The notes under the pieces are model-generated. The model did no database searches. It was given only the letters and a program-made list of their open reading frames with translations, and was not told the DNA's origin. From contig JAEENZ010000143.1 in NCBI GenBank assembly GCA_016283985.1, positions 1 through 13,940 of the forward strand: a DNA stretch of 13,940 bases, in the 5' to 3' direction. Positions 2,245 through 13,827 of this stretch are shown piece by piece. The stretch comes from Bacteroidales bacterium (GTDB taxonomy: Bacteria; Bacteroidota; Bacteroidia; Bacteroidales; UBA932). The translations under genes were made by a program, and so were the position numbers. The stretch's first letter is position 1; each line of letters begins with the position of its first letter.

Positions 2245-3810
2245 ATGAAAATACGCAATCTGATCCTTCTCCTTTCCGGCATCATGCTTCTTGCCGCCTC
2301 TGCCGGCGCAGATGCCAAATCTAAAAAGACCGTTATTCCCGCCGAAGTAAAAATGACCAAGCAGGTCCTCCAGGACAAGATCCGTGGGGCGTGGGCCGGG
2401 CAGGTCATAGGCTGCACATATGGAGGACCTACCGAATTCAAGTACTCCAACTTCATTCCGGATGAATATCCCATCGACTGGAATGAACATATAGTCAAGT
2501 GGTGGTATGATCATACCCCCGGTCTCTATGACGACGTGTACATGGACCTCACATTCGTCGAGGTTTTCGACCGTGAGGGACTCGATGCTCCAGTGGAATC
2601 CTTTGCGAAAGCATTCGCGAATGCAGGATATCCTCTCTGGCACGCCAATCTGCAGGCACGCTACAATATCCTGCAGGGCATCATGCCTCCGGAATCCGGT
2701 CATTGGAAGAACAATGCCCATTCCGATGATATCGACTTTCAGATAGAAGCGGATTATGCCGGCATCATGGCTCCCGGAATGATCAATGCGGCGGTCGGAT
2801 ACACCGATGATATTGGCCACATAATGAACTATGGCGACGGCTGGTACGGGGGAGTGTACGTGGCGGCTATGTATGCCCTGGCTTTCGTATCCAACGACAT
2901 CCCGTTCATCGTCAGCGAAGCACTCAAGACCATCCCTGCGCAGAGCAGGTACTACAAGTGCATGGCGGACGTTATCAAATGGTGGAAGCAGTATCCGGAC
3001 GACTGGCACATCACCTGGGCCCTTGCCAACGAGAAGTACGGCTACGACATAGGCTGCCCCAGTGGCTTCAGCTCCGCTTTCAATATCGACGCAGTCATCA
3101 ACAGCGCCTACATCATTATAGGTCTCCTCTACGGTAACGGCAACTTCTACCGCACCATCGACATATCCACCCGCTGCGGCTACGATTCCGACTGCAACCC
3201 TGCATCCGCCGGAGGCATCCTGGGCACCGTTCTCGGCTTCAACAAGATTCCCGCCTACTGGAAAACGCCCATCTACGAGGTTGAGGACATGGATTTCAAA
3301 TACACCGATATCTCCCTGAACCGTGTGTACAAGATGAGTTTCAAGCAGGCGCTCAAGGTGATCGAACTGAACGGCGGCAGCACCGAGGGCCCGAGCGTGA
3401 CCATCAAGACCCAGAAGCCTCAGGCAGTGCGTCTGGAGCAGGGCTTCGAAGGCCACTGGCCGGTATCCAAGACGGATATCAAGAAGACTCCCTGGCAGAT
3501 GGGAGATTATGCCTTCACCGGCAAGGGTGCCATCCTGACATATCATTTCACCCTGCCCAAGCCCTACAATGTGACGGACTACAAGGCAAACGTCGAGGTC
3601 TGGGTGGATGGCAAGCTCTACAAGACCGTCCAGCTGCCCACTGCCGGAAACGGCCAGACCCGCGAGATCTGCGGCATATGGGACCTCCCCATGGGCGAGC
3701 ACAAAGTGGCAGTAAAGTGGACCAACAAGCCCGGCGACATCAACATGGTAGTCGACTGCATCAACGTTTTCTCCGATAAACCAGCACCCGTAAAGCACGT
3801 AGACAAATGA
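2245..3810 (+). CDS. Secreted ADP-ribosylglycohydrolase-fold protein with C-terminal beta-sandwich
   Basis: The 521-residue product opens with a signal peptide (MKIRNLILLLSGIMLLAASA, probable cleavage after residues 22-24), so it is exported. Residues about 40-335 show the ADP-ribosylglycohydrolase (DraG/ARH-like, PF03747) pattern: a glycine-rich N-terminal segment GAWAGQVIGCTYGGPTEF (48-65), an acidic pair DDVYMD (96-101), HSDDIDFQIEADY (159-171) and the late metal-site motif RCGYDSDCNPASAGGILG (310-327), which corresponds to the GGDTDT-type motif of the family. These Asp residues normally bind two Mg ions. Residues about 395-512 look like a beta-sandwich with alternating strands. An exported copy tied by an ATGA overlap to a rhamnosidase is unlikely to process ADP-ribosylated protein. 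I infer a glycosidase-like role on plant glycan fragments, but the reaction is unknown. Confidence 0.85.
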   Translation: MKIRNLILLLSGIMLLAASAGADAKSKKTVIPAEVKMTKQVLQDKIRGAWAGQVIGCTYGGPTEFKYSNFIPDEYPIDWNEHIVKWWYDHTPGLYDDVYMDLTFVEVFDREGLDAPVESFAKAFANAGYPLWHANLQARYNILQGIMPPESGHWKNNAHSDDIDFQIEADYAGIMAPGMINAAVGYTDDIGHIMNYGDGWYGGVYVAAMYALAFVSNDIPFIVSEALKTIPAQSRYYKCMADVIKWWKQYPDDWHITWALANEKYGYDIGCPSGFSSAFNIDAVINSAYIIIGLLYGNGNFYRTIDISTRCGYDSDCNPASAGGILGTVLGFNKIPAYWKTPIYEVEDMDFKYTDISLNRVYKMSFKQALKVIELNGGSTEGPSVTIKTQKPQAVRLEQGFEGHWPVSKTDIKKTPWQMGDYAFTGKGAILTYHFTLPKPYNVTDYKANVEVWVDGKLYKTVQLPTAGNGQTREICGIWDLPMGEHKVAVKWTNKPGDINMVVDCINVFSDKPAPVKHVDK

Positions 3811-6623
3811 AAAGGATCCTATTAGCACTCGCTGCACTCGTTCTGGCGCTGCCCGCTTTCTCCATCAGTTCAAAGGCCGTATTCCAGGCCTTCCAGAACC
3901 CGTCGGATGCCTATCGGCCCTATGTGCGCTGGTGGTGGAACGGGGACCGCGTAGATGAGGCGGAGATCCGCCGGGAGCTGAATCTCCTGAAAGAAGCCGG
4001 AATCGCCGGCGTGGAGATCAATCCCATTTCCTTCCCCGGGCGTCCGGACGATGCCCTGGGCAAGAAATCCCTGGTCTGGCTCAGCGACGAGTGGATAGAC
4101 ATGCTCGGCGTGGCTTTCGACGAGGCGAAGAAGCTCGGCATGACCTGCGACCTTATTGTCGGTTCCGGCTGGCCTTTCGGCTCAGAAACCCTTCCGCGCG
4201 ATGAGCGCGCCTCAGTGATCCTGACCTACTGCGACAAGGCCATGGGCGGGGCGGTGTACGACAAATCCCTCTTCCATGTCTATAAGGAGCTGGATCCAAA
4301 GGTTTCCATCCCCAATCCCGGGCGTGTGCCTGAGTTGCTTAAGGTGCTGCTGGTGCCGGATCCTATAAACGACCTCTCCGAGGCCCAGGACATCACCGAC
4401 AAGGTGAAGAGGAACACCATCAAGATGAAGATTCCCGCCGGCAAGTGGCAGGTATATTATATGGTGAAGTACAACTCCTTCGCCAGCGTAATTAATGGCG
4501 CTCCCGGTGCCGCAGGCCCCATCCTGGACCATATGAACGCGGCCGCCGTGCGCAAGTATCTCGACCGCATGTCCGACCGCATCGAAGCTAAGCTGGGCCC
4601 TCTGTCCAACCACCTACGCGCCTTCTTTGTGGACAGCATGGAGCTCGAGGGAGCCAACTGGACGGGTGATTTCGCAGAACAGTTCAAGGCCCGCAGAGGC
4701 TACGACATCCTGCCCTGGCTGCCCTTCACCATGTTCAAACTCCGCCGCCTCGGCGAGGTCGAGGACTTCAACTACGGCTGCGCCAAGGGTGAGAAGTTCC
4801 AGAACCAGGTGAACCGCGCCCGCTACGACTTCGAGCTGACCAAGGCGGAACTCCTGGAAGAGCGCTTCTTCAAGGTTTACGAGCAGTGGGCTCGCGACCA
4901 TGGCGTGAAATCCCGCGCGCAGGGCTACGGATGCGGATTCTTCATCGAAGAAACCTCCATGGGCCTCGACATCCCCGAAGGCGAGTCCTGGACAACCAAC
5001 TGGCTGCGCCACGTGGTGGGCGAGGAGATGGGAGACGAAGACTACCGCCGTGGCCGCGGATATACCATGATAGACAAGTACGTATCTTCCGCCGCCCATC
5101 TTACCGGCAAGCGTCTGGTGAGCTGCGAGGAAATGACCAATACCTACAACGTGTTCTCCACCTCCCTGGAATACCTGAAGGTGGGCTCGGACATGAGCTG
5201 CATCTCCGGCATCACCCACTCGGTGTGGCACGGATTCAACTACTCACCCAAGGAAGCCCCCTTCCCTGGCTGGGTGCAGTACGGCAGCTACTATAACGAG
5301 AAGAACACCTGGTGGCCTTATTGGAAACTGCTGAACGACTACCGCGCCCGCATGGGTGCCCTGGTGCGCAACGCGGATATGTACACCGACATGGCCATCC
5401 TGCCCGCCAATGCCGACCTCTGGTCTACCATGGGCGTGCAGACAGAGCCCTTCCCGGTGAAGCTCAACATCCCCTATACCTCGCTGGTCTGGGAGGCCAT
5501 CCACAAGAATGGAGGCGGTGCTGACTATGTGTCCGAGAGTATCCTGGCAGGAGCCACAGTCAAGAATGGCAAACTATGCTACGGCCCCAAGAAGTACGGG
5601 GTGCTGTTCACCGTCGAGGTGCGCGGCACGACCGTCGAGGCCATGGAGAAGATACGCGAGTTCGTGCTCGGCGGCGGCCGTGTGTTCTGCATAGAGGCCT
5701 ATCCCGAGAAATCGGTTGGAATGCAGGATTTCGAGGCCCGTGATGCCCGCATCCAGGCAATCGTGGACGAACTCAAGAAGACCGGCCGCTTCATCCTTCT
5801 TCCCAAGCCGGAAGGGGACCACTTCCTGGAGTGGTACACGGATGTGGCTGCGAAGTACAATCTCCCTTCTTCTGTGAAGATTGGCACCCCCGACCGTTTC
5901 CTTCTCCAGAACCGCTATACCATGGATGACGGCAGCGATTTCTACTTCTTCGTGAATGCCAGCAGGCTCGAAGGCAAGTCCACCGACATTACCTTCCCCG
6001 CATCCATCACCAAGGGCCGTAAGGCGTGGATATACGACCCCGCCACAGGCAAGCGTCATCCGCTCAAACTGGATGCCTCCGGCAAGGTGCATTTCGACTT
6101 CGGCCCGTCCGAGAGCTTCGTATTCATGTTCAACAAGATGGGAGGCGAGGCTACTGCGTACAAGAAGCTTCCCGTATCTGGAGCAAAGCCTGTAGAAGTG
6201 AAGGACTGGGCGGTAACGCTGGTCAATCCTGAAGTTCCGGACGTGCCCGGAACCACCATGGAAAAGCTCGTGGACCTGAAGGATACCGAGGAGTATAAGA
6301 ACTTCATGGGAACCGCCACATACACGGCCAGGTTCACGGTCTCAGGCGCCCTTCCGAAGTATCTGAACCTTGGCAAGGTGGGCTATATCGCAGAAGTCAG
6401 CATTAACGGCAAGCCTGCAGGCCTGCATTGGTATGGTGACGCCGTGCTTCCGGTCGACGGCCTGGTGAAGGCTGGGGACAATACCATCGAGGTGAAGGTT
6501 ACGACTCTTATGAGTAACTATATGCAGACTCTCACCGAGAATCGCAATGCCCAGCGCTTCGTGCTCCGCCGGAATACGCCTCTCAAGCCCGCCGGCCTGA
6601 TCGGTCCGGTGGTACTCTACTGA
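3807..6623 (+). CDS. GH106-type alpha-L-rhamnosidase, secreted
   Basis: This 938-residue protein has a signal peptide (MKRILLALAALVLALPAFS, cleavage near residue 19). The N-terminal segment PYVRWWWNGDRVDEAEIRRE (38-57), continuing to GVEINPI near residue 74, is characteristic of GH106 proteins (PF17132), enzymes that release alpha-L-rhamnose from pectic and other glycans. Candidate acidic active-site regions are FVDSMELEG (274-282) and LVSCEEMTN (437-445). I did not assign the catalytic pair. A C-terminal galactose-binding-like domain (about 800-938) includes GYIAEVSINGKPAGLHW. It is slightly shorter than many GH106 enzymes (about 1000-1100 residues) but appears complete. Its ATG overlaps the TGA of the preceding gene (ATGA), implying translational coupling. 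A REP-like hairpin starts 15 nt after its stop. Confidence 0.88.
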   Translation: MKRILLALAALVLALPAFSISSKAVFQAFQNPSDAYRPYVRWWWNGDRVDEAEIRRELNLLKEAGIAGVEINPISFPGRPDDALGKKSLVWLSDEWIDMLGVAFDEAKKLGMTCDLIVGSGWPFGSETLPRDERASVILTYCDKAMGGAVYDKSLFHVYKELDPKVSIPNPGRVPELLKVLLVPDPINDLSEAQDITDKVKRNTIKMKIPAGKWQVYYMVKYNSFASVINGAPGAAGPILDHMNAAAVRKYLDRMSDRIEAKLGPLSNHLRAFFVDSMELEGANWTGDFAEQFKARRGYDILPWLPFTMFKLRRLGEVEDFNYGCAKGEKFQNQVNRARYDFELTKAELLEERFFKVYEQWARDHGVKSRAQGYGCGFFIEETSMGLDIPEGESWTTNWLRHVVGEEMGDEDYRRGRGYTMIDKYVSSAAHLTGKRLVSCEEMTNTYNVFSTSLEYLKVGSDMSCISGITHSVWHGFNYSPKEAPFPGWVQYGSYYNEKNTWWPYWKLLNDYRARMGALVRNADMYTDMAILPANADLWSTMGVQTEPFPVKLNIPYTSLVWEAIHKNGGGADYVSESILAGATVKNGKLCYGPKKYGVLFTVEVRGTTVEAMEKIREFVLGGGRVFCIEAYPEKSVGMQDFEARDARIQAIVDELKKTGRFILLPKPEGDHFLEWYTDVAAKYNLPSSVKIGTPDRFLLQNRYTMDDGSDFYFFVNASRLEGKSTDITFPASITKGRKAWIYDPATGKRHPLKLDASGKVHFDFGPSESFVFMFNKMGGEATAYKKLPVSGAKPVEVKDWAVTLVNPEVPDVPGTTMEKLVDLKDTEEYKNFMGTATYTARFTVSGALPKYLNLGKVGYIAEVSINGKPAGLHWYGDAVLPVDGLVKAGDNTIEVKVTTLMSNYMQTLTENRNAQRFVLRRNTPLKPAGLIGPVVLY

Positions 6624-6638
6624 TTCCGGTCTCTGATT

Positions 6639-6677
6639 GTGTCCGTGCGTGGAAAGCCGTATTTCACGCACGGACAC
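6639..6677. repeat. REP-like palindrome L1 (3' side of the RAYT gene)
   Basis: GTGTCCGTGCGTG (6639-6651) is the exact reverse complement of CACGCACGGACAC (6665-6677). A G-U and two A-T pairs extend the stem inward, leaving a loop of about 7 nt (6655-6661). It carries the shared core CCGTGCGT/ACGCACGG. It sits 15 nt after the GH106 stop and may also protect or terminate that transcript, but no T tract follows. Confidence 0.9.
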
Positions 6678-6692
6678 TGCTTTAATTGGCAT

Positions 6693-6726
6693 CCCGTGCG
6701 TAGAATAGGCTTGTTTACGCACCGGG
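6693..6726. repeat. REP-like palindrome L2 (between L1 and the RAYT stop)
   Basis: CCCGTGCGTA (6693-6702) pairs with TACGCACCGGG (6716-6726) over 10 bp with one bulged C. The 13-nt loop is 6703-6715. It is separated from L1 by the 15-nt spacer TGCTTTAATTGGCAT and ends 7 nt before the RAYT stop codon complement. The bulge is the only interruption in the arms. Confidence 0.85.
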
Positions 6727-6733
6727 TGTTTCG

Positions 6734-7663
6734 TCATTTCCCGAACAGTTCGGCAATTAGAGCTCTGTCCAACCTGAGCATACGCTGAATCTGTCCTTCC
6801 GATGCATTGTAATTCGAGCGAAGTATTTTTGCGAGAGATATTTTATCGTCTACAGGTAACATGGTAGGACGTACTCCTCCATAATTCTGTTTTGAAAGTA
6901 GAGTGAGAACTGCAAACATTTCTTCATCTGGTAAAACAACAGCATCTCCAAGACGTTTGGCTACCTCGGAATATGCTTCATAATTCTTGGTTAATAATGA
7001 GAAATAGTGATGGGCATCTCTAAACACTGCCATCCCTGTTTTAGAGCAATAGCAAGCTGGTGAGATAATATCTCCTGATACAATATAATCATCTGGTAAA
7101 GATGCTGCCCTCCCTTTGCAAATCATACGTTTTTTCAGGTCCGGCAAGTCTTTGTATTTTATGAAAGACGAAGGATCGAGGCTTTTCCCCCAATACAAGT
7201 CTCCGCTACCCCATGGGTATGAGTAAGGGGTGTAGGAATTATTGGCGACATATCCATTCCGGTTAACATAGCAAATCTCTATTCTGAGTGTCCGGAGGTC
7301 CAAAATAGGAATGGGTGTCGAACAGGTGAATCTGCTCAAGTCCACATATCGTCCCTGCGAAGAATAGTAGCGTTTCAATCGTTTTTTAATTGACTCGAAG
7401 AATAAAATGCAATCTTCTTCCGATCCCTTCAAGATAAAATGCAGGTGATTGCTCATCACCTCAAATGTGATTATCTTAACAGGGGAGACCGCAGCAACTA
7501 TAGCGATTGTATTCATGATGAAGCGATAATCATCGATAGTCTCAAACAATAGTTCTGTGAATTGGCCGGGTGTGCATAGGTGCCAGAAAGGACCTTCTCT
7601 CAAGAAGAGAGCTTCACATTTCCTCTCTATTTCAGAATAATTATACTCTCGTTTTACAATCAT
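6734..7663 (-). CDS. REP-associated tyrosine transposase (RAYT)-like HUH/Y1 protein with extra C-terminal domain
   Basis: The 309-residue protein carries the IS200/Y1 transposase signature (PF01797). The metal-binding HUH motif is H73-L-H75 in FEVMSNHLHFILKG (67-80). The segment IEICYVNRNGYV (128-139), followed by YSYPWGSGDLYW (147-158), matches the RAYT pattern Y-I-H-x-N-P-V ... Y-P-W-S-S. Y132 is the likely nucleophile for single-strand DNA cleavage. RAYTs nick and rejoin single-stranded DNA at REP hairpins. Residues about 160-309 exceed the usual catalytic core. The end (SLAKILRSNYNASEGQIQRM, 276-295, to ELF) looks like a helix-turn-helix. I chose ATG at 7663, preceded by the A/G-rich TAAAGAAAAAAC, over the in-frame ATG at 7762, whose extra 33 residues lie in repeat-derived DNA. 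The gene is AT-richer than its neighbours, suggesting transfer. REP-like hairpins flank both ends. Confidence 0.85.
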   Translation of the reverse strand: MIVKREYNYSEIERKCEALFLREGPFWHLCTPGQFTELLFETIDDYRFIMNTIAIVAAVSPVKIITFEVMSNHLHFILKGSEEDCILFFESIKKRLKRYYSSQGRYVDLSRFTCSTPIPILDLRTLRIEICYVNRNGYVANNSYTPYSYPWGSGDLYWGKSLDPSSFIKYKDLPDLKKRMICKGRAASLPDDYIVSGDIISPACYCSKTGMAVFRDAHHYFSLLTKNYEAYSEVAKRLGDAVVLPDEEMFAVLTLLSKQNYGGVRPTMLPVDDKISLAKILRSNYNASEGQIQRMLRLDRALIAELFGK

Positions 7664-7739
7664 TGTTTTTTCTTTAATCCCAAATACCAGAGACCCTCTG
7701 AATGTCCCAGTTTCCGCAGACACACTTGGTATTCCGGAT

Positions 7740-7754
7740 TCCACGGACACAATG
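7740..7754 (-). repeat. Degenerate REP-like half-site upstream of the RAYT gene
   Basis: On the - strand the sequence reads ATTGTGTCCGTGGAA, sharing the 12-base string ATTGTGTCCGTG with the left edge of L1 (6637 onwards). Further similarity continues into the L1 loop (GAATCCGGAATA against GAAAGCCGTATT). The matching right arm is not preserved. I read this as the remnant of an inverted, decayed palindrome, a tentative call. Confidence 0.4.
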
Positions 7755-7834
7755 GGTGACATTCAATGGCCAAGATAGAAACAATGACAGAAATAATGGG
7801 GGTACAACAGTAGGTAAAAACTAAAATATAAAGT

Positions 7835-7869
7835 TTCCGTGCGTGAAACATTAATATCTACGCACGGAA
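7835..7869. repeat. REP-like palindrome R1
   Basis: TTCCGTGCGT (7835-7844) is the exact reverse complement of ACGCACGGAA (7860-7869), with a 15-nt AT-rich loop (7845-7859). It carries the full core in both arms. It is the first of three palindromes spaced 17 nt apart. Confidence 0.9.
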
Positions 7870-7886
7870 GACGTAAATCCAAGCCC

Positions 7887-7919
7887 TCCGTGCGTAAAAA
7901 GTGGCCATTTGCGCACGGA
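7887..7919. repeat. REP-like palindrome R2
   Basis: TCCGTGCGTAAA (7887-7898) pairs with TTTGCGCACGGA (7908-7919), 12 bp with a single T-G wobble. The loop is the 9-nt AAGTGGCCA. The wobble keeps the stem pairable as single-stranded DNA or RNA despite the base change. Its right flank, GGACACCAC, resembles the right flank of L1. Confidence 0.88.
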
Positions 7920-7936
7920 CACCACTTAAATGACAT

Positions 7937-7969
7937 CCCGTGCGTGGGAAGCTGTATTTCACGCACGGG
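7937..7969. repeat. REP-like palindrome R3
   Basis: CCCGTGCGTG (7937-7946) is the exact reverse complement of CACGCACGGG (7960-7969). Two wobbles and an A-T pair extend it inward. The interior (GGAAGCTGTATTT) closely resembles that of L1 (GAAAGCCGTATTT). It follows R2 after a 17-nt gap that ends in ATGACAT. Confidence 0.9.
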
Positions 7970-7975
7970 AGTATA

Positions 7976-8030
7976 CTTTCGCGCAAGGAGACTGGCTTCT
8001 CGTTCCCGGGAATATTCTTTTGCGCTCGGG
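7976..8030. repeat. Probable decayed two-hairpin REP unit (R4)
   Basis: Aligned by eye with gaps, this segment follows the order of R2's right arm, spacer and R3: TTTCGCGCAAGGAGAC, then TTCCCGGGAA (a perfect 10-bp palindrome at 8003-8012), then TTTTGCGCTCGGG. GCGCAA (7981-7986) and TTGCGC (8020-8025) remain complementary. The intact core CCGTGCGT is gone. The assignment rests on order and partial identity only. Confidence 0.4.
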
Positions 8031-8040
8031 GCGCTTTGTA

Positions 8041-10203
8041 CTATAGCGCGAGTTTATGTGAGCCGGGGGAGAGGCGCTGGAGGCGGCCGCGAGTGTCGGT
8101 GACGACTGCGGTGGTGCCTTCGGGGACGGTGATGACGGCATTGATGCGGCGGCCGCGTCGATCCAGCGTAACTTCTATCATGCCGTAGACGGTCTCCAGG
8201 CCGCACTCGATATGCTTGAGGGAACCCATCCGGGGCCGTACGGTGAATTCCCTGAATCCGGGTTCAAGGGGCTCTATGCCAGCCAGGCGCTGGCTGCAGA
8301 GGATGATGCCGTGCCCGCTCCAAGCATGGTTGCTGGAATTCTTGAGTCCGCGGTGCTCCCACAAGGTGCTGTAGCCGTTCATCACCTGGGGGATGTATTC
8401 GCAGAGACGGGCCAGGGCGAGGTCGGGCCTGCCCATGACGAAGAATGCGTCGATCACATAGCGCATGAAATAGGTCTCCGCTTCCTTGCGTTCTGCGAGG
8501 ACTTTCAGGATTGCATCGTACTTGTCCGGTCCGGCTAAGCCCGAAACCACGGCGAGGGCTTGAACGCGGTCATCCGCGGGCCCGTCATAACCCGGGGTCT
8601 TGTAGCAGCTGCCGGTCCAGAAAAGCCGGTTGTAGGATTCTTTCAGGCGGTCCATCATTGCCTCGTCCGAGCCCACGTCATCTATTTTGCCCAGCTGCCC
8701 GGCCAGGTCCCTTTCGCCCTTCAGGGCAAGGTAGTACCACGGGTGCAGCAGGGCTACCCTGTCGATATCGCGGCCGGCATCGGCCCAGTTCCAGCCATTG
8801 GTTCGCTCCAGGGGCAGATCGTCGGAATCCACCACCCAACTCTCGTGGAGATACCTGTGCAGGGCGGGATATACCTCGGGGATGAAGGCATCGTCAGCAC
8901 TGTAGAACCAGTAATCGTGGAAGCCGTACCATCCGGCGGCGGCAAGGCTCTGCTGGGCGAGTTCCCTGTACCAGTTGGAGCATGGAACGGGAGCGTACAG
9001 GCCTCCGTCCGGGGCGGCCCAGTTCGCGAACTCGATGAAACCCTTGCGGGCCAGTTTCCAGGAAGACGGACTCAGTGCGTAGAACGCCTCCATCATCTCG
9101 TGGACCTCGTCTCCTATCCACTGTGCGCGTTCGCGGTCGGGGCAGTCCATCCAGGTGTCCCGCATGCAGATGTATGCCGTGCGCTGAGCCTTCTGCCAGT
9201 ATTCGTTAAGAAGGGGATCGTCGCAGCGGAACCATCCGCTGAAGGAGGTGTCGTAGCCGGTTTCGCGGAACTGCACTTTGCTGATGGTAACTCCCTGGGG
9301 GACAATGTAATACATGTACTCGCCATTCAGCCAGGGCAGATGCTCGTAGACCTGGGAACCCCCGCGGGTAACATACTCTCCACTCACGCATTTAGCCCCG
9401 CCAACGGCATCGTGGTCGGTGACCAGCCGGATGGTCTTGCCGGCGCTGGCATCCAGTTCCATATAGGGGGAGAACTGGGCGTTGTAGGGGAGATGGCAGA
9501 TGAGCGTGTCCCCGCTGCGGCGCACCTCGTCATAATCCTTCAGTCCATAGTCTTTCCAAAGGGGAATGGGGCGGGGGATGAGCTTTCCGAGCGGAGCCTT
9601 GCCGGGCTCGATGGCAAGTTCGAAAGCGCTGCCCATGCGTTTGGAAGTGCCCTTGAACCAATCGGGGTTGAACTTGCGGGCATCATAACGCACGTTGCTT
9701 TCGCTCAGGCGGTAGTTCGGGGCTTCGCCGGATGCGGAGCCATAGGCGAAGTGAACGCATGCATCCCAGCTGGAGTCGGAGAGTATCTCCACGCCGCCGC
9801 CCACAGCTTCGAATAATAGCGCGCAGATGCCGCTGCCCATGTGGCTGAAGCCGCTGCGTCCGAAATACCACACCAGGACGGAGATGACGTTCTCTCCCGT
9901 TTTAAGGTATGGAGCGATGTCCACTGTGTCGTAATAGCCGTCTCCTGGGGCCGGGCCGCGCTTGAGGCCGCCTTCGAGGACCACAGTTTCGCCGTTGATC
10001 CATAGCCAGTATTTACTGTCTGCGGCTATCCTGGCCGGCAGCTCGGCGGGAACGCTGCCGATGGTTACCTTCTTCTGGAAGGCGATCCAGGTGTTGGCAT
10101 CGCTGGGGCTGTAGGCGCGGGAAATCCAGCGTGCTTTCCATGTGTCTGCTGAAAGTTGCAGCGCTGCGAGGAGCAGCGCTGCAACCAAAATGAATCTTTT
10201 CAT
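8041..10203 (-). CDS. GH78 alpha-L-rhamnosidase, secreted
   Basis: This 720-residue protein has a signal peptide (MKRFILVAALLLAALQLSA, cleavage near residue 19). Residues about 20-320 form N-terminal beta-sandwich domains. The (alpha/alpha)6 catalytic domain contains DCPDRERAQWIGD (353-365). In the Bacillus RhaB numbering I recall, D353, E358 and D365 match rhamnose-contacting Asp567, Glu572 and Asp579. E616 in STLWEHRG matches Glu841, and N625-H626 follows in SSNHAWSG. The C-terminal beta domain has the usual AGIEPLEPGFREFTVRPR (641-658). GH78 enzymes invert configuration while removing terminal alpha-L-rhamnose. Its ATG follows the TAG of the preceding gene with no gap (TAGATG), so translation is probably coupled. 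It is the last enzyme gene of the - strand operon. It is shorter than many GH78 proteins but retains the key residues. Confidence 0.92.
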   Translation of the reverse strand: MKRFILVAALLLAALQLSADTWKARWISRAYSPSDANTWIAFQKKVTIGSVPAELPARIAADSKYWLWINGETVVLEGGLKRGPAPGDGYYDTVDIAPYLKTGENVISVLVWYFGRSGFSHMGSGICALLFEAVGGGVEILSDSSWDACVHFAYGSASGEAPNYRLSESNVRYDARKFNPDWFKGTSKRMGSAFELAIEPGKAPLGKLIPRPIPLWKDYGLKDYDEVRRSGDTLICHLPYNAQFSPYMELDASAGKTIRLVTDHDAVGGAKCVSGEYVTRGGSQVYEHLPWLNGEYMYYIVPQGVTISKVQFRETGYDTSFSGWFRCDDPLLNEYWQKAQRTAYICMRDTWMDCPDRERAQWIGDEVHEMMEAFYALSPSSWKLARKGFIEFANWAAPDGGLYAPVPCSNWYRELAQQSLAAAGWYGFHDYWFYSADDAFIPEVYPALHRYLHESWVVDSDDLPLERTNGWNWADAGRDIDRVALLHPWYYLALKGERDLAGQLGKIDDVGSDEAMMDRLKESYNRLFWTGSCYKTPGYDGPADDRVQALAVVSGLAGPDKYDAILKVLAERKEAETYFMRYVIDAFFVMGRPDLALARLCEYIPQVMNGYSTLWEHRGLKNSSNHAWSGHGIILCSQRLAGIEPLEPGFREFTVRPRMGSLKHIECGLETVYGMIEVTLDRRGRRINAVITVPEGTTAVVTDTRGRLQRLSPGSHKLAL

Positions 10204-10791
10204 CTATTCGCGGGTGTCGGTGAAGCAACCGTCATTCACCACTTCGCTGTTCACGGCTTCGTAGAACTTGCCGGGCGTGGCGGGGTTGCGGTACAGGACC
10301 TTGACGAGCTTGATGTTCTTGCAGTTCTCGAAATAGAACAGGGTGGGAACGGGTGTGCCCTCGGGGAGGTAGCCCTTGTCCTTCTGGTCTTTGTAGCTGG
10401 CGAGCACGAGATCCGCACGGCCGTCCACTACACCGTTTCCGCGGGTGGCGAAGATGCGCACGTTCTCAACGCCGATGGCATTGAAAATGGCCTTCTGGCC
10501 CTTGTAGCCGTAGATGCTGTCGGTGCCGATGATGTCGGCGGCCGCATCGAGACGGATGTTTACGCCGCTGCGGAGATTCACGGCTCCGGTGAGGTAACGT
10601 CCAACGCAGAAAGTGAGGGTTCCACCGCCTTTTTCGGCAATGAAATCGATTGCTTTCTGGATGCTGGTGGTATTGTCGATCAGACCGTTACTCTTGATGC
10701 CGAAATAAGAGGCATTCCATTCCTTATTGTTCTGTGCGAGCGCGCTCACGCACAGGAGAGCAGCTGCCGCTATTGCTATGATCTTTTTCAT
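10204..10791 (-). CDS. Short secreted beta-helix protein resembling the N-terminal part of GH28/pectate-lyase-like proteins
   Basis: The 195-residue product has a signal peptide (MKKIIAIAAAALLCVSALAQ). It then resembles the first third of the neighbouring GH28-like proteins: SYFGIKSNGLIDNTTSIQKA (28-47), GGGTLTFCVGRYLTGAVNLR (55-74), and GVENVRIFATRGNGVVDG (107-124). It stops before the region where the catalytic NxDG and DD motifs would appear, so it should not be an active GH28 enzyme by the usual mechanism. Its start overlaps the preceding stop by one base (TAATG), and its own TAG abuts the GH78 ATG, so there is no room for a lost 3' half. It may be a binding or scaffold beta-helix, a lyase of another type, or a fixed truncation product. 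Confidence 0.75.
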   Translation of the reverse strand: MKKIIAIAAAALLCVSALAQNNKEWNASYFGIKSNGLIDNTTSIQKAIDFIAEKGGGTLTFCVGRYLTGAVNLRSGVNIRLDAAADIIGTDSIYGYKGQKAIFNAIGVENVRIFATRGNGVVDGRADLVLASYKDQKDKGYLPEGTPVPTLFYFENCKNIKLVKVLYRNPATPGKFYEAVNSEVVNDGCFTDTRE

Positions 10792-12290
10792 TATTTCTTG
10801 TTCTTGAATTTCTTGACGTTGTTGGTGACGATCTGCTTCTTTTTCTTGTCGGCGCCGGGCTGATCGATCTTCACGCCCTGGAAGTTGAGGCCGACCACGT
10901 CATCCGCGACGATGGCGGGACGGTAATCCTCTCCGGCAACGCTGACCTTCACGTTCTTGAATGTCACGCCTTCTGCATGGCGGATATAGAATCCCCAGGC
11001 GGGAAGCTCCTTCCAGTTGGAGAACTCAGGATAGCTCTTTTCGAGTTCGGGAATGGCCTCGAGTTCGGCCTTGGAACTGCCGCGGTAGGCGTAGTCCTTA
11101 TCTGCCTGGCCGGGATATACTATCTCTATATTCTCGAGGGTGATGTTCTGGATAGGTATGCCTGGAATGCCCTGGATGCCGCTGGGGCACACGTTGCGGG
11201 GCAGATCCTCCACGGGGCCTTCATACATGTAACCGGCGTCCGGTTTGTCGAAAGGAACCTCGGCATACACGTTTTTGATGACGATATCCTTCATGTAAGG
11301 AGTCTGCTCCTGACGGCGGCGGGAACCGGTGCGGATGAAGATGGGGTTGCCGGTATGCAGGCTCTTGAGGCCGTCGATGACCACATCTTCGATCTGTGCT
11401 CCGTCCACGGTCGCTATGGTGATGGCTGAACGGTAGGTGTCTACGATCTCCATGTTATGGAAGCGGAAATGTTTGAACTTGCCGAGAGTGTAGGTGCCGA
11501 ACTTGATTCCGTTGGCACTGGACCGTCCCCAGCAGTTCTCCACGAGGATGTTCTCGGAGAGGCCGTCCTTGCTGTGGCTCTTGAAGCAGTACACGTCGTC
11601 CGCGGCATCGAACCTGCAGTTGCGGATGATAACGTCGGAGCAGTCCACGATGTCGATTCCGTCGTTGTTCCAATACGACTTGGCATCTACTGAAACACCG
11701 TCCACCAGGATGTTGCGGCACTTGTCGTACTGCTGGTTCCAGGATGCGGGGTCCTTGAGGGTGATGCCCGTGATGGTGATGTTCTCGCACTTATAAAAGT
11801 GGAGGTTCTCGGGCCGCTTGCCTTCCTGAAGGCGGTCCAGTTTGAGGGGATCGTCGATCAGGCCGAGATGGCAGTAGTCCACGCCCTTGGTGGCCACCAG
11901 GAAGCCGCGGCAGTTGATTTCACCCTTGCCGGTGATGCCTATGTTCTTCTGGCCGATGGAGAAGATCATCGAAGTCCACTTAGCTTCCGGATCCTTGATA
12001 TAGTCCCAGGGATTCAGGGATCCGAGGATTCGCGCACCCTCCTCGATGTGCAGGGTTACATCGTTCTTGATGTAGATGGTGCCGGTGACGAAATCGCCGC
12101 CCTTGAGTATGAGGCGTCCGCCTCCGTGGGTGGAGATGTAGTCGATTGCCGCCTGCAGGGCCGCCGTGTTAAGCGTTTCCCCGTCGGGCCTGGCACCGAA
12201 TTCGGTGGCAAGGTAATCCTTGGCGCCCGCCTGCACCGCGAATGCGGAGGCTAGGACCAGGACGGATACGATTCTGAGTAATTTCTTCAT
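10791..12290 (-). CDS. GH28-like right-handed beta-helix glycosidase (copy 2), secreted
   Basis: This is a 499-residue protein with a signal peptide ending near AVQAGA (18-23). The beta-helix starts with the GH28/pectate-lyase-like N-terminus YLATEFGARPDGETLNTAAL (26-45). GH28 acid residues are visible: D210 in WNNDGID (207-213) and D231-D232 in AADDVYCFKS (229-238). The usual GHG motif is replaced by SANG (258-261), and the RIK segment by RSAIT (287-291), so the canonical His and Lys are absent. GH28 enzymes hydrolyse galacturonan or rhamnogalacturonan backbones. The altered subsite residues suggest a different or exo-type substrate, which is inference. It is a tandem paralogue of the gene at 12297-13787, starting 6 nt after that stop. 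The tail is Lys-rich. Translation is coupled downstream by TAATG. Confidence 0.85.
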   Translation of the reverse strand: MKKLLRIVSVLVLASAFAVQAGAKDYLATEFGARPDGETLNTAALQAAIDYISTHGGGRLILKGGDFVTGTIYIKNDVTLHIEEGARILGSLNPWDYIKDPEAKWTSMIFSIGQKNIGITGKGEINCRGFLVATKGVDYCHLGLIDDPLKLDRLQEGKRPENLHFYKCENITITGITLKDPASWNQQYDKCRNILVDGVSVDAKSYWNNDGIDIVDCSDVIIRNCRFDAADDVYCFKSHSKDGLSENILVENCWGRSSANGIKFGTYTLGKFKHFRFHNMEIVDTYRSAITIATVDGAQIEDVVIDGLKSLHTGNPIFIRTGSRRRQEQTPYMKDIVIKNVYAEVPFDKPDAGYMYEGPVEDLPRNVCPSGIQGIPGIPIQNITLENIEIVYPGQADKDYAYRGSSKAELEAIPELEKSYPEFSNWKELPAWGFYIRHAEGVTFKNVKVSVAGEDYRPAIVADDVVGLNFQGVKIDQPGADKKKKQIVTNNVKKFKNKK

Positions 12291-12296
12291 CTTATG

Positions 12297-13787
12297 CTAT
12301 TTTAGTTTATAGATTTTTACTTTGTTGAAAACGGTCTGCTTCTTTCCCTTGGGAGCGCTCTTCTGGACTATCGTGAGACCCTTCAGGTCCAGCCCGTTCA
12401 CATCGTCCGCCACCAGGGCGGGGCGGTAGTCTTCGTCTTCCACCACTATCTTCACATTCTTGAAGGTGACGTTGTCGGCGTGGCGGATGTAGAATCCCCA
12501 TGCGGGAAGCTCCTTCCAGTTGGAGAACTCCGGATAGCTCTTCTCGAGCTCCGGGATGGCTTCCAACTCTGCCTTGGATGTTCCTCGGAAGGCATAATCC
12601 GGATCGGCCTTGCCGGGGTAGTGTATCTCCACATTTTCAAGCAGCACGTTTTCGATGCGGAGCCCGGGAATGCCCTGGATGCCGCTGGGGCACACGTTGC
12701 GGGGGAGATCCTCTACCGGGCCCTCGTACATGTAGCCCGCGTCCGGTTTGTCGAAGGGAACCTCGGCGTACATGTTGCGGATGGTGATGTTGCGCATGCA
12801 CGGGGCGGCTCCGGCATTACGGCAGCCGGTGCGGAGGAAGATGGGATTGCCGGTATTAATGCTCCGCAGGCCGTCCACCTCGATGTTCTCGATGGTGGCA
12901 CCGTCCACGCTCGCTATGGTGATGGCGGAGCGGAAGGTGTCGTAAATCTCGATATTCTTGAACTTGAAGTTTCGGAATGTGCCCCGGGTGACCGTGCCGA
13001 ACTTGATGCCGTTGGCGCTGGAACGGCCGCGGCAGTTCTCCACCAACACGTTTTCGCTCACTCCGTAGGCTACGTGGCTCTTGAAGCAGAAGACATCATC
13101 GGATGCATCGAAATCGCAGTCGCGGATGATCACGTCGGAGCAGTCCACCACATCGAGCCCGTCGTTGTTCCAGTAGCATTTGGAATCCACCTTCACGCGC
13201 TCGATGAGCAGGTTCCGGCACTGGTCGTACTGCTGGTTCCAGCTGGCCGGGTTCTTGATGGAAACATCCTGCACGGTAACGCCGTTGCAGCGGTAGAAGT
13301 GTATGTTCTCCGGGCGGATTTCCGCGCTCACGCGGTCCAGGCCTAGCCTGTCGTTAACCACGCCCTTGTGCACGTATTCCACTATCTTGGTGCCCACTTC
13401 GAAGCCCTGGCAATCGATGTCCCCGGAGCCCGTAAGTGCGATGTCATGCTGGTCTACGGCCAGCAGGAGGGCCGTCCATCGGGCGACGGGATCCCGCACG
13501 TAATCCCAAGGATTGGGGGATCCTAGCAGGCGCGCCCCGGCGCTGATATGGAGGTCTACGCCGGATTTCAGATAGAGGGATCCGGAGAGGAAATCTCCTC
13601 CGGAGAGGATGAGCCGGCCGCCTCCGTTTGCGGAGATATGATCAATGGCCGCCTGCAATGCGCAGGTGTTCAGGGTAGTGCCGTCGGCGCGGGCTCCGAA
13701 ATCCGTGGCGAGCCAGTCGCGGGCTCCTGCTGTGAAAGAAAGCAGCATCGCTGCCAGGGAGAGTGAAAATATGCGGCTTGTCTTCAT
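12297..13787 (-). CDS. GH28-like right-handed beta-helix glycosidase (copy 1), secreted
   Basis: The 496-residue protein is the first gene of the - strand operon. I take ATG at 13787, giving MKTSRIFSLSLAAMLLSFTAGA as a signal peptide. The in-frame ATG at 13826 would lie upstream of the promoter -7 element. GH28 acids are present as D209 in WNNDGLD (206-212) and D230-D231 in ASDD (228-231). As in copy 2, GHG is replaced by SANG (257-260) and RIK by RSAIT (286-290). Two blocks are identical to copy 2: 35 residues (341-375 here) and 34 residues (404-437 here). The rest diverges mainly at the N-terminal third and the tail. A role in cleaving rhamnose/galacturonate-containing pectin is inferred from family and operon. 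The predicted leader is only a few bases long. Confidence 0.85.
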   Translation of the reverse strand: MKTSRIFSLSLAAMLLSFTAGARDWLATDFGARADGTTLNTCALQAAIDHISANGGGRLILSGGDFLSGSLYLKSGVDLHISAGARLLGSPNPWDYVRDPVARWTALLLAVDQHDIALTGSGDIDCQGFEVGTKIVEYVHKGVVNDRLGLDRVSAEIRPENIHFYRCNGVTVQDVSIKNPASWNQQYDQCRNLLIERVKVDSKCYWNNDGLDVVDCSDVIIRDCDFDASDDVFCFKSHVAYGVSENVLVENCRGRSSANGIKFGTVTRGTFRNFKFKNIEIYDTFRSAITIASVDGATIENIEVDGLRSINTGNPIFLRTGCRNAGAAPCMRNITIRNMYAEVPFDKPDAGYMYEGPVEDLPRNVCPSGIQGIPGLRIENVLLENVEIHYPGKADPDYAFRGTSKAELEAIPELEKSYPEFSNWKELPAWGFYIRHADNVTFKNVKIVVEDEDYRPALVADDVNGLDLKGLTIVQKSAPKGKKQTVFNKVKIYKLK

Positions 13788-13795
13788 ACTTCCTA

Positions 13796-13827
13796 CAAAT
13801 TTAATCGCAAGCGGACAAAAAAGCAAA
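13796..13827 (-). promoter_or_regulatory. Promoter of the GH28-GH28-beta-helix-GH78 operon
   Basis: On the - strand, TAAATTTG (13803-13796) is a perfect TAnnTTTG -7 element. TTTG at 13827-13824 lies 20 nt upstream, giving a centre-to-centre distance of 26 as expected for -33/-7. The start codon at 13787 is only 8 nt beyond the -7 element, so the predicted 5' leader is about 4-5 nt. The spacer contains A/T-tract DNA. Confidence 0.75.

Follow-up and report, generated by a model that had tools for sequence, protein, structure and literature searches.

The 13,940-nucleotide stretch of contig JAEENZ010000143.1 from a Bacteroidales gut bacterium, referred to throughout as the window, carries a gene for a RAYT-like HUH/Y1 protein that is enclosed by short palindromes resembling repetitive extragenic palindromic (REP) sequences. 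The gene occupies positions 6734..7663 of the minus strand and encodes 309 amino acids from its most likely start, which is also the median length of 64 family members; an alternative in-frame start (6734..7762, minus strand) would give 342 amino acids. The pattern CCGTGCGT-N15-ACGCACGG, searched with up to two mismatches, matches the window at exactly five places, compared with a mean of 0.01 in 200 shuffles. Two of these hairpins lie on the 3′ side of the gene, at 6643..6673 (hairpin 1, exact) and 6694..6726 (hairpin 2, one mismatch if read as 6694-6724 or one insertion if read to 6726), and three on the 5′ side, at 7837..7867 (hairpin 3, exact), 7888..7918 (hairpin 4, one mismatch) and 7938..7968 (hairpin 5, exact). 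Each of the five measures 31 bp, and neighbouring hairpins start 51 bp (1 to 2), 51 bp (3 to 4) and 50 bp (4 to 5) apart. An earlier note on this DNA had described five palindromes with a common core around a single HUH/Y1 gene, two 3′ and three 5′ of it, with the exact core in eight of ten half-sites and no further copy in the window. This description is accurate: the coordinates agree for a minus-strand gene, the other two half-sites are off by one base (alternatively an insertion in the one ending at 6724) and nothing beyond the five was found at this threshold. The regular step is absent from that note. Folded as single-stranded DNA, the hairpins reach −8.9 to −17.8 kcal/mol (z −3.7 to −6.8). 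The GT[AG]G foot is missing: by eye, the tetranucleotides bordering the 31-bp hairpins read GTGT, CATC, GTTT, CCCT and CATC on one strand, and GT[AG]G is not seen there on the other strand either.

The protein contains an HUH motif, N-H-L-H, at residues 72-75 (7439..7450, minus strand), of which H73 and H75 are invariant in 47 members, and a single presumed catalytic tyrosine, Y132 (7268..7270, minus strand), in the motif YVNRNG; Y132 and N136 are invariant in the same 47 members, and the role of the tyrosine is taken from the family. Y-V-N-R-N-G are also the commonest residues at these columns in the alignment of 64 members, and the second residue of the Y motif, four after the tyrosine, is N in all 64. 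The predicted model (pLDDT 92.5) has PDB entry 4ER8 as its best match and shares the fold of the Escherichia coli RAYT in structure comparison, in agreement with the RAYT/TnpAREP superfamily in the broad sense. The gene is RAYT-like as judged from its HUH motif, its tyrosine and this predicted fold. Curated models score it below their cut-offs (24.1 versus 80 bits for NCBIfam NF047646 and 13.5 versus 23 bits for Pfam PF01797), even though the family has members in 335 of the 400 genomes that were searched, all from the genus of the nearest genome (G001, which shares 55% of the sampled 31-mers of the window). Homologues are present in 127 of the 150 high-quality genomes of this set, often as several divergent copies per genome, and an initial search was positive in 33 of 37 genomes of the genus versus none of 24 from other families. 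Named records found by a second route belong mostly to rumen and gut Bacteroidales, including Candidatus Cryptobacteroides faecigallinarum, although a few carry titles that suggest no gut origin; some are titled Rikenellaceae or Bacteroidaceae, and the family is therefore not confined to one genus. The genus of the window is probably Cryptobacteroides. We found no description of it in the literature. The closest homologue of the window protein, at 67% identity, is encoded in G070, and its gene too is flanked on either side by the window core.

Flanking of the gene by cognate hairpins on either side recurs among the relatives. Of 77 RAYT loci, 64 have a frame under the motif filter and 59 of these have both flanks; of the 13 loci dropped, three were inspected, and their motif reads THxH, not NHxH. 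At 29 of the 59 loci, hairpins on either side of the gene share a 7-mer arm, compared with 82 of 3422 mismatched 5′/3′ flank pairs and none of 1180 shuffles. In a second, overlapping set the figures are 34 of 70 loci and 136 of 4830 mismatched pairs, and a further 20 loci have a repeated core that is not both-sided. The cores themselves vary widely (GTGTGCA, TTTGTTCC, TGTATGCA, TCGTTCA, ACCGCAC and others), so that the relatives carry many enzyme–hairpin pairs with quite different hairpin sequences. Sharing of a core rises with protein identity, from nine of 1658 pairs below 40% through six of 428 at 40-50% and nine of 137 at 50-60% to 17 of 55 at 60% or more; in the smaller first set, all 17 pairs at 60% or more shared their core.

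The feature that nearly all of these loci have in common is the step between hairpins. The two sets, after removal of duplicates, give 99 loci, 43 of them flanked on both sides by hairpins of one core. Spacing could be measured at 40 of the 43, where 37 include a step of 50-52 bp, two have only steps of about 102-104 bp and one has neither; among 121 spacings, 104 fall at 50-52 bp, 13 at 102-104 bp and four elsewhere (22, 40, 61 and 113 bp). Self-similarity of the flanks, which does not depend on hairpin calls, peaks at lag 51 both in the 43 both-sided loci (z 14.5) and in the other 56 (z 10.5), with lag 102 next. The corresponding value is 2.2 in 282 windows away from the gene, not above several other multiples of three, and 1.3 for 27 ordinary Bacteroidales RAYTs (YIHxNP in 20 of them), whose flanks show no 51-bp register. 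For the core TGTATGCA, which was searched by single hairpins and hence without bias towards pairs, 32 of 33 neighbouring spacings below 150 bp are exactly 51 bp and one is 102 bp (counted by hand). Hairpins of four cores measure 25, 29, 31 and 34 bp and all have the 51-bp step; the spacer therefore makes up the difference. The step stays within 50-52 bp at loci whose proteins are less than 30% identical and whose cores are unrelated. The earlier note had suggested a system with a different hairpin sequence; it is the common register, not the hairpin sequence, that stands out. The flanks of a RAYT that is more distant and has the motif YILRNP (L027, G017:C4) show a strong period of 74 rather than 51.

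Copies of the hairpins are dispersed in the same genomes as a RAYT in relatives of the window, and the suggestion that the family would be found outside this locus has thus held. All genome counts are lower bounds because the assemblies are drafts. The exact window core occurs in seven of the 400 genomes, each with a RAYT homologue, and its reversed control in four, at one place each. With up to two mismatches and the reversed core as control, G070 has ten places on five contigs (control 2) and G218 has 44 on six contigs (control 0), the latter in arrays with a period of about 50 bp, one of them beside its RAYT. Counts are near chance in G023 (3, control 1), G013 (2, control 2) and G229 (3, control 2), and none of 13 further genomes exceeds two places. 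The core TTTGTTCC is found at 8 to 32 places in each of the seven genomes that have the RAYT clade bearing it, including the arrays beside the RAYT itself (all eight places in G293); the remaining 393 genomes comprise 386 without the core, six with a single place and one with six. Its reversed control occurs at one or two places in 24 genomes (counted by hand). Among 40 chosen genomes, TGTATGCA has 33 places in G146, 17 in G198, 16 in G070, five in G193, one each in G110 and G299 and none in 34; its control has no place in these 40. Whether the hairpin tracks with the RAYT, a test proposed in the earlier note, is answered only weakly by the window core: it is present in seven of 335 RAYT-bearing and none of 65 RAYT-free genomes, a difference too slight to establish tracking, and no close relative of the window RAYT is present in several of these seven. 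Tracking is much clearer for the sister core TTTGTTCC. At one dispersed site (L036, G070:C1:226107) a hairpin pair begins about 10 bp past the stop codon of a polynucleotide phosphorylase-like frame (named by eye). A GC-rich element, similar in three places (L107, L108 and L110), lies between the hairpin arrays of G218 and may represent a further repeat family, and about 28-37 bases near 1274-1310 of L214 recur at about 30 sites in G001 and also in several relatives, another dispersed repeat.

The unit of dispersal was examined at 40 TTTGTTCC places, which were picked from matches to doublet-containing queries, a selection that favours doublets. They comprise 34 doublets, two triplets and six single hits, two of these six being weak matches, so that the doublet is the dispersed unit, as in REP doublets (REPINs). 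In 16 of 32 isolated doublets, all of one type and orientation, conservation extends from about −5 to +86 and falls almost to nothing beyond; the conserved unit of about 85-90 nt thus consists of a pair of hairpins with a 17-nt spacer. The asymmetric hairpins of the G218 arrays are direct tandem repeats, and the 32 TTTGTTCC doublets show mixed type patterns. Loci differ by whole units: an orthologous site has three units in G146 versus two in G198, and the arrays beside six orthologous RAYTs have two to five units per side. Neighbourhoods of the TTTGTTCC clade are syntenic, and the gene has therefore been inherited in place there. The RAYT adjoins a GH78 gene both in the window and in G070, where GH106 is inverted. 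At this site G198 has only two hairpins, and its outer flanks match the left and right flanks of G070; the RAYT is therefore present or absent exactly between the hairpins. The GH106-GH78 pair of G001 has neither the RAYT nor these hairpins, and a different, GC-rich, long imperfect palindrome lies between the two genes (about 1340-1500 of L118). Beside a hairpin doublet, G146:C95 and G070:C4 (L213, L225) are 99% identical in the left flank and 85% in the right, which suggests recent exchange. The neighbours of the RAYT in the window (2245-13826) are ADP-ribosylglycohydrolase, GH106, GH78-like and GH28 genes, a set that looks like a rhamnogalacturonan-degrading cluster; the GH28-type genes form a tandem pair (10791-12290 and 12297-13826) with repeated stretches 72-74% alike, and a 195-residue frame after the pair (10204-10791) has no Pfam match.

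These observations probably reflect a REPtron-like pair, in which a gene for a RAYT-type HUH nuclease goes with its own hairpin family arranged in tandem units of about 51 bp on both sides. The protein family, the predicted fold, the both-sided cognate hairpins, the different cores of different RAYTs, the dispersal in relatives, the register and the whole-unit differences form the basis of this reading. The protein would probably recognize its cognate hairpin in single-stranded DNA and would cleave beside it through Y132; as the anatomy, co-variation and dispersal suggest, it would move or duplicate the units, which would become scattered over the genome in doublets and short arrays, and the gene itself would mostly stay put under vertical inheritance. 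Several findings weigh against the pairing of gene and hairpins or against mobility. An exact both-sided core is missing at about half of the loci (30 of 59 and 36 of 70). Of the 38 pairs that do not share a core at 60% identity or more, 36 come from one clade (L174, L175, L180, L183, L184, L187, L190, L192, L194 and L195), whose proteins are 60-86% identical with different cores, and the RAYT of G218 is only 41% identical yet has the window's own core. Places of the window core stand in G251 (7, control 2) and G198 (6, control 1), where no close RAYT was found, and G124 has its six TTTGTTCC hairpins without that RAYT clade; these three assemblies are 67-80% complete. Copy numbers are modest beside those of classical REPs, with a maximum of 44 places in any genome searched versus often more than 100 in the canonical GTAG family. 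The locus comparisons revealed no recent insertion for which a clean empty site exists, and recombination between hairpins could explain the precise RAYT loss in G198 as well as excision does. Gene and core are associated, not locked.

Two accounts of the register can be offered, and neither commands even odds. We tentatively propose an enzyme that gauges a step of about 51 nt along single-stranded DNA, perhaps by sitting on two adjacent hairpins as a dimer, and that copies or inserts units of this size, so that length and not sequence would be the invariant; hairpins would diversify with the proteins, several specificities would coexist in one genome and the family would form a separate RAYT branch. 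The step may instead be inherited, a possibility that we take seriously while leaning against it: slippage or recombination would change the size of ancestral 51-bp arrays, substitutions would change their cores, and the period would be kept by inertia, with a protein that needs one hairpin and no ruler. Whole-unit duplication and copy-number changes in syntenic arrays are expected from such processes, and the periods of 50 and 52 show that small indels do happen; however, the 50-52 bp have been kept despite the divergence of proteins and cores, and the step is constant with four hairpin lengths and in the dispersed copies too.

Accounts of a different kind fare worse. An IS200/IS605-like insertion sequence, with the gene and its end hairpins mobile as one unit, would also have a Y1 gene flanked by hairpins, and the precise presence or absence of the RAYT between hairpins at one site would suit it. 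It is nevertheless improbable, since the RAYT copies listed within genomes (part of the genomes inspected) diverge in match score and identity and none are near-identical, the syntenic TTTGTTCC neighbourhoods and the shared GH78 position speak for a stationary gene, the predicted fold is closer to 4ER8 than to IS608 and the Y motif is YxxRN rather than Y---Q, N replacing Q in 64 of 64 members. That ordinary host hairpins, terminators or mRNA stabilizers, surround the gene by chance is very improbable and hardly tenable as a full account: some dispersed copies do begin about 10-25 bp past a long frame, as at the pnp-like frame of G070, but the core is identical on both sides of each gene, TTTGTTCC tracks its RAYT clade and the 282 windows away from the gene lack the lag-51 signal. 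A host role for dispersed copies is possible. Least probable of all is a TIRtron (PMC3733652), in which long terminal inverted repeats take the place of REP-like hairpins around a RAYT-like gene; the long protein with its C-terminal extension recalls the subclass tied to TIRYTs in PMC6006769, but the flanks are tandem hairpin units and gene-free doublets are dispersed.

The 51-bp step offers a way into the question of how such hairpins spread, and bears on how RAYTs spread REP sequences and on the nature of the mobile unit. Many natural enzyme–hairpin pairs of different specificity share the one step, and the unit, its edges and its specificity can therefore be tested with short oligonucleotides.

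Among known systems, compared here through the relevant parts of the cited papers, the closest is the RAYT/TnpAREP REPtron (PMC2817692; PMC8266576; 4ER8), in which RAYTs are flanked by co-evolving REPs (PMC2817692) that are cleaved in vitro (PMC8266576). It shares the Y1 HUH protein, the best fold match, the both-sided cognate hairpins, the dispersed copies and the different specificities within one genome. The system described here differs in its 309-residue protein with a helical C-terminal part, the motif YxxRNG, the lack of a GT[AG]G foot at the window hairpins, copy numbers of tens or fewer versus often hundreds, and one 51-bp register across many families; the missing foot and the at most 44 places per genome, a lower bound from drafts, do not fit a canonical GTAG REP family. 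In REPINs, as here, the hairpin doublet is the likely replicative unit (PMC3116915), with a spacing specific to the group; in SBW25 the doublets are mostly inverted, with common spacings of 71 bp (GI) and 110 bp (GII), whereas here a step of about 51 bp spans many unrelated cores and the asymmetric hairpins of G218 are direct repeats. Subclass 2.1 and the TIRYTs also have longer Y1 proteins with extra C-terminal domains (PMC6006769; PMC3733652), but the account of subclass 2.1 on which we draw reports no REP-like hairpins, and hairpin arrays are common here. The earlier note had suggested that this could be a distinct Bacteroidetes RAYT/REP system, REP association being established mainly for Proteobacteria. 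In itself the association of RAYTs with hairpins in Bacteroidetes is already known from TnpAREP subclass 2.6, which likewise has atypical hairpins without GT[AG]G and copies elsewhere in the genome (PMC6006769). The distinction itself stands: subclass 2.6 has a median of 179 residues and the motif YIH[QN]NP, from which the present family departs in its median of 309 residues and its commonest motif YVNRNG, to which the 51-bp register adds a further difference. This is a distinct RAYT family in a REPtron-like system, set within the known RAYT/REP kind.
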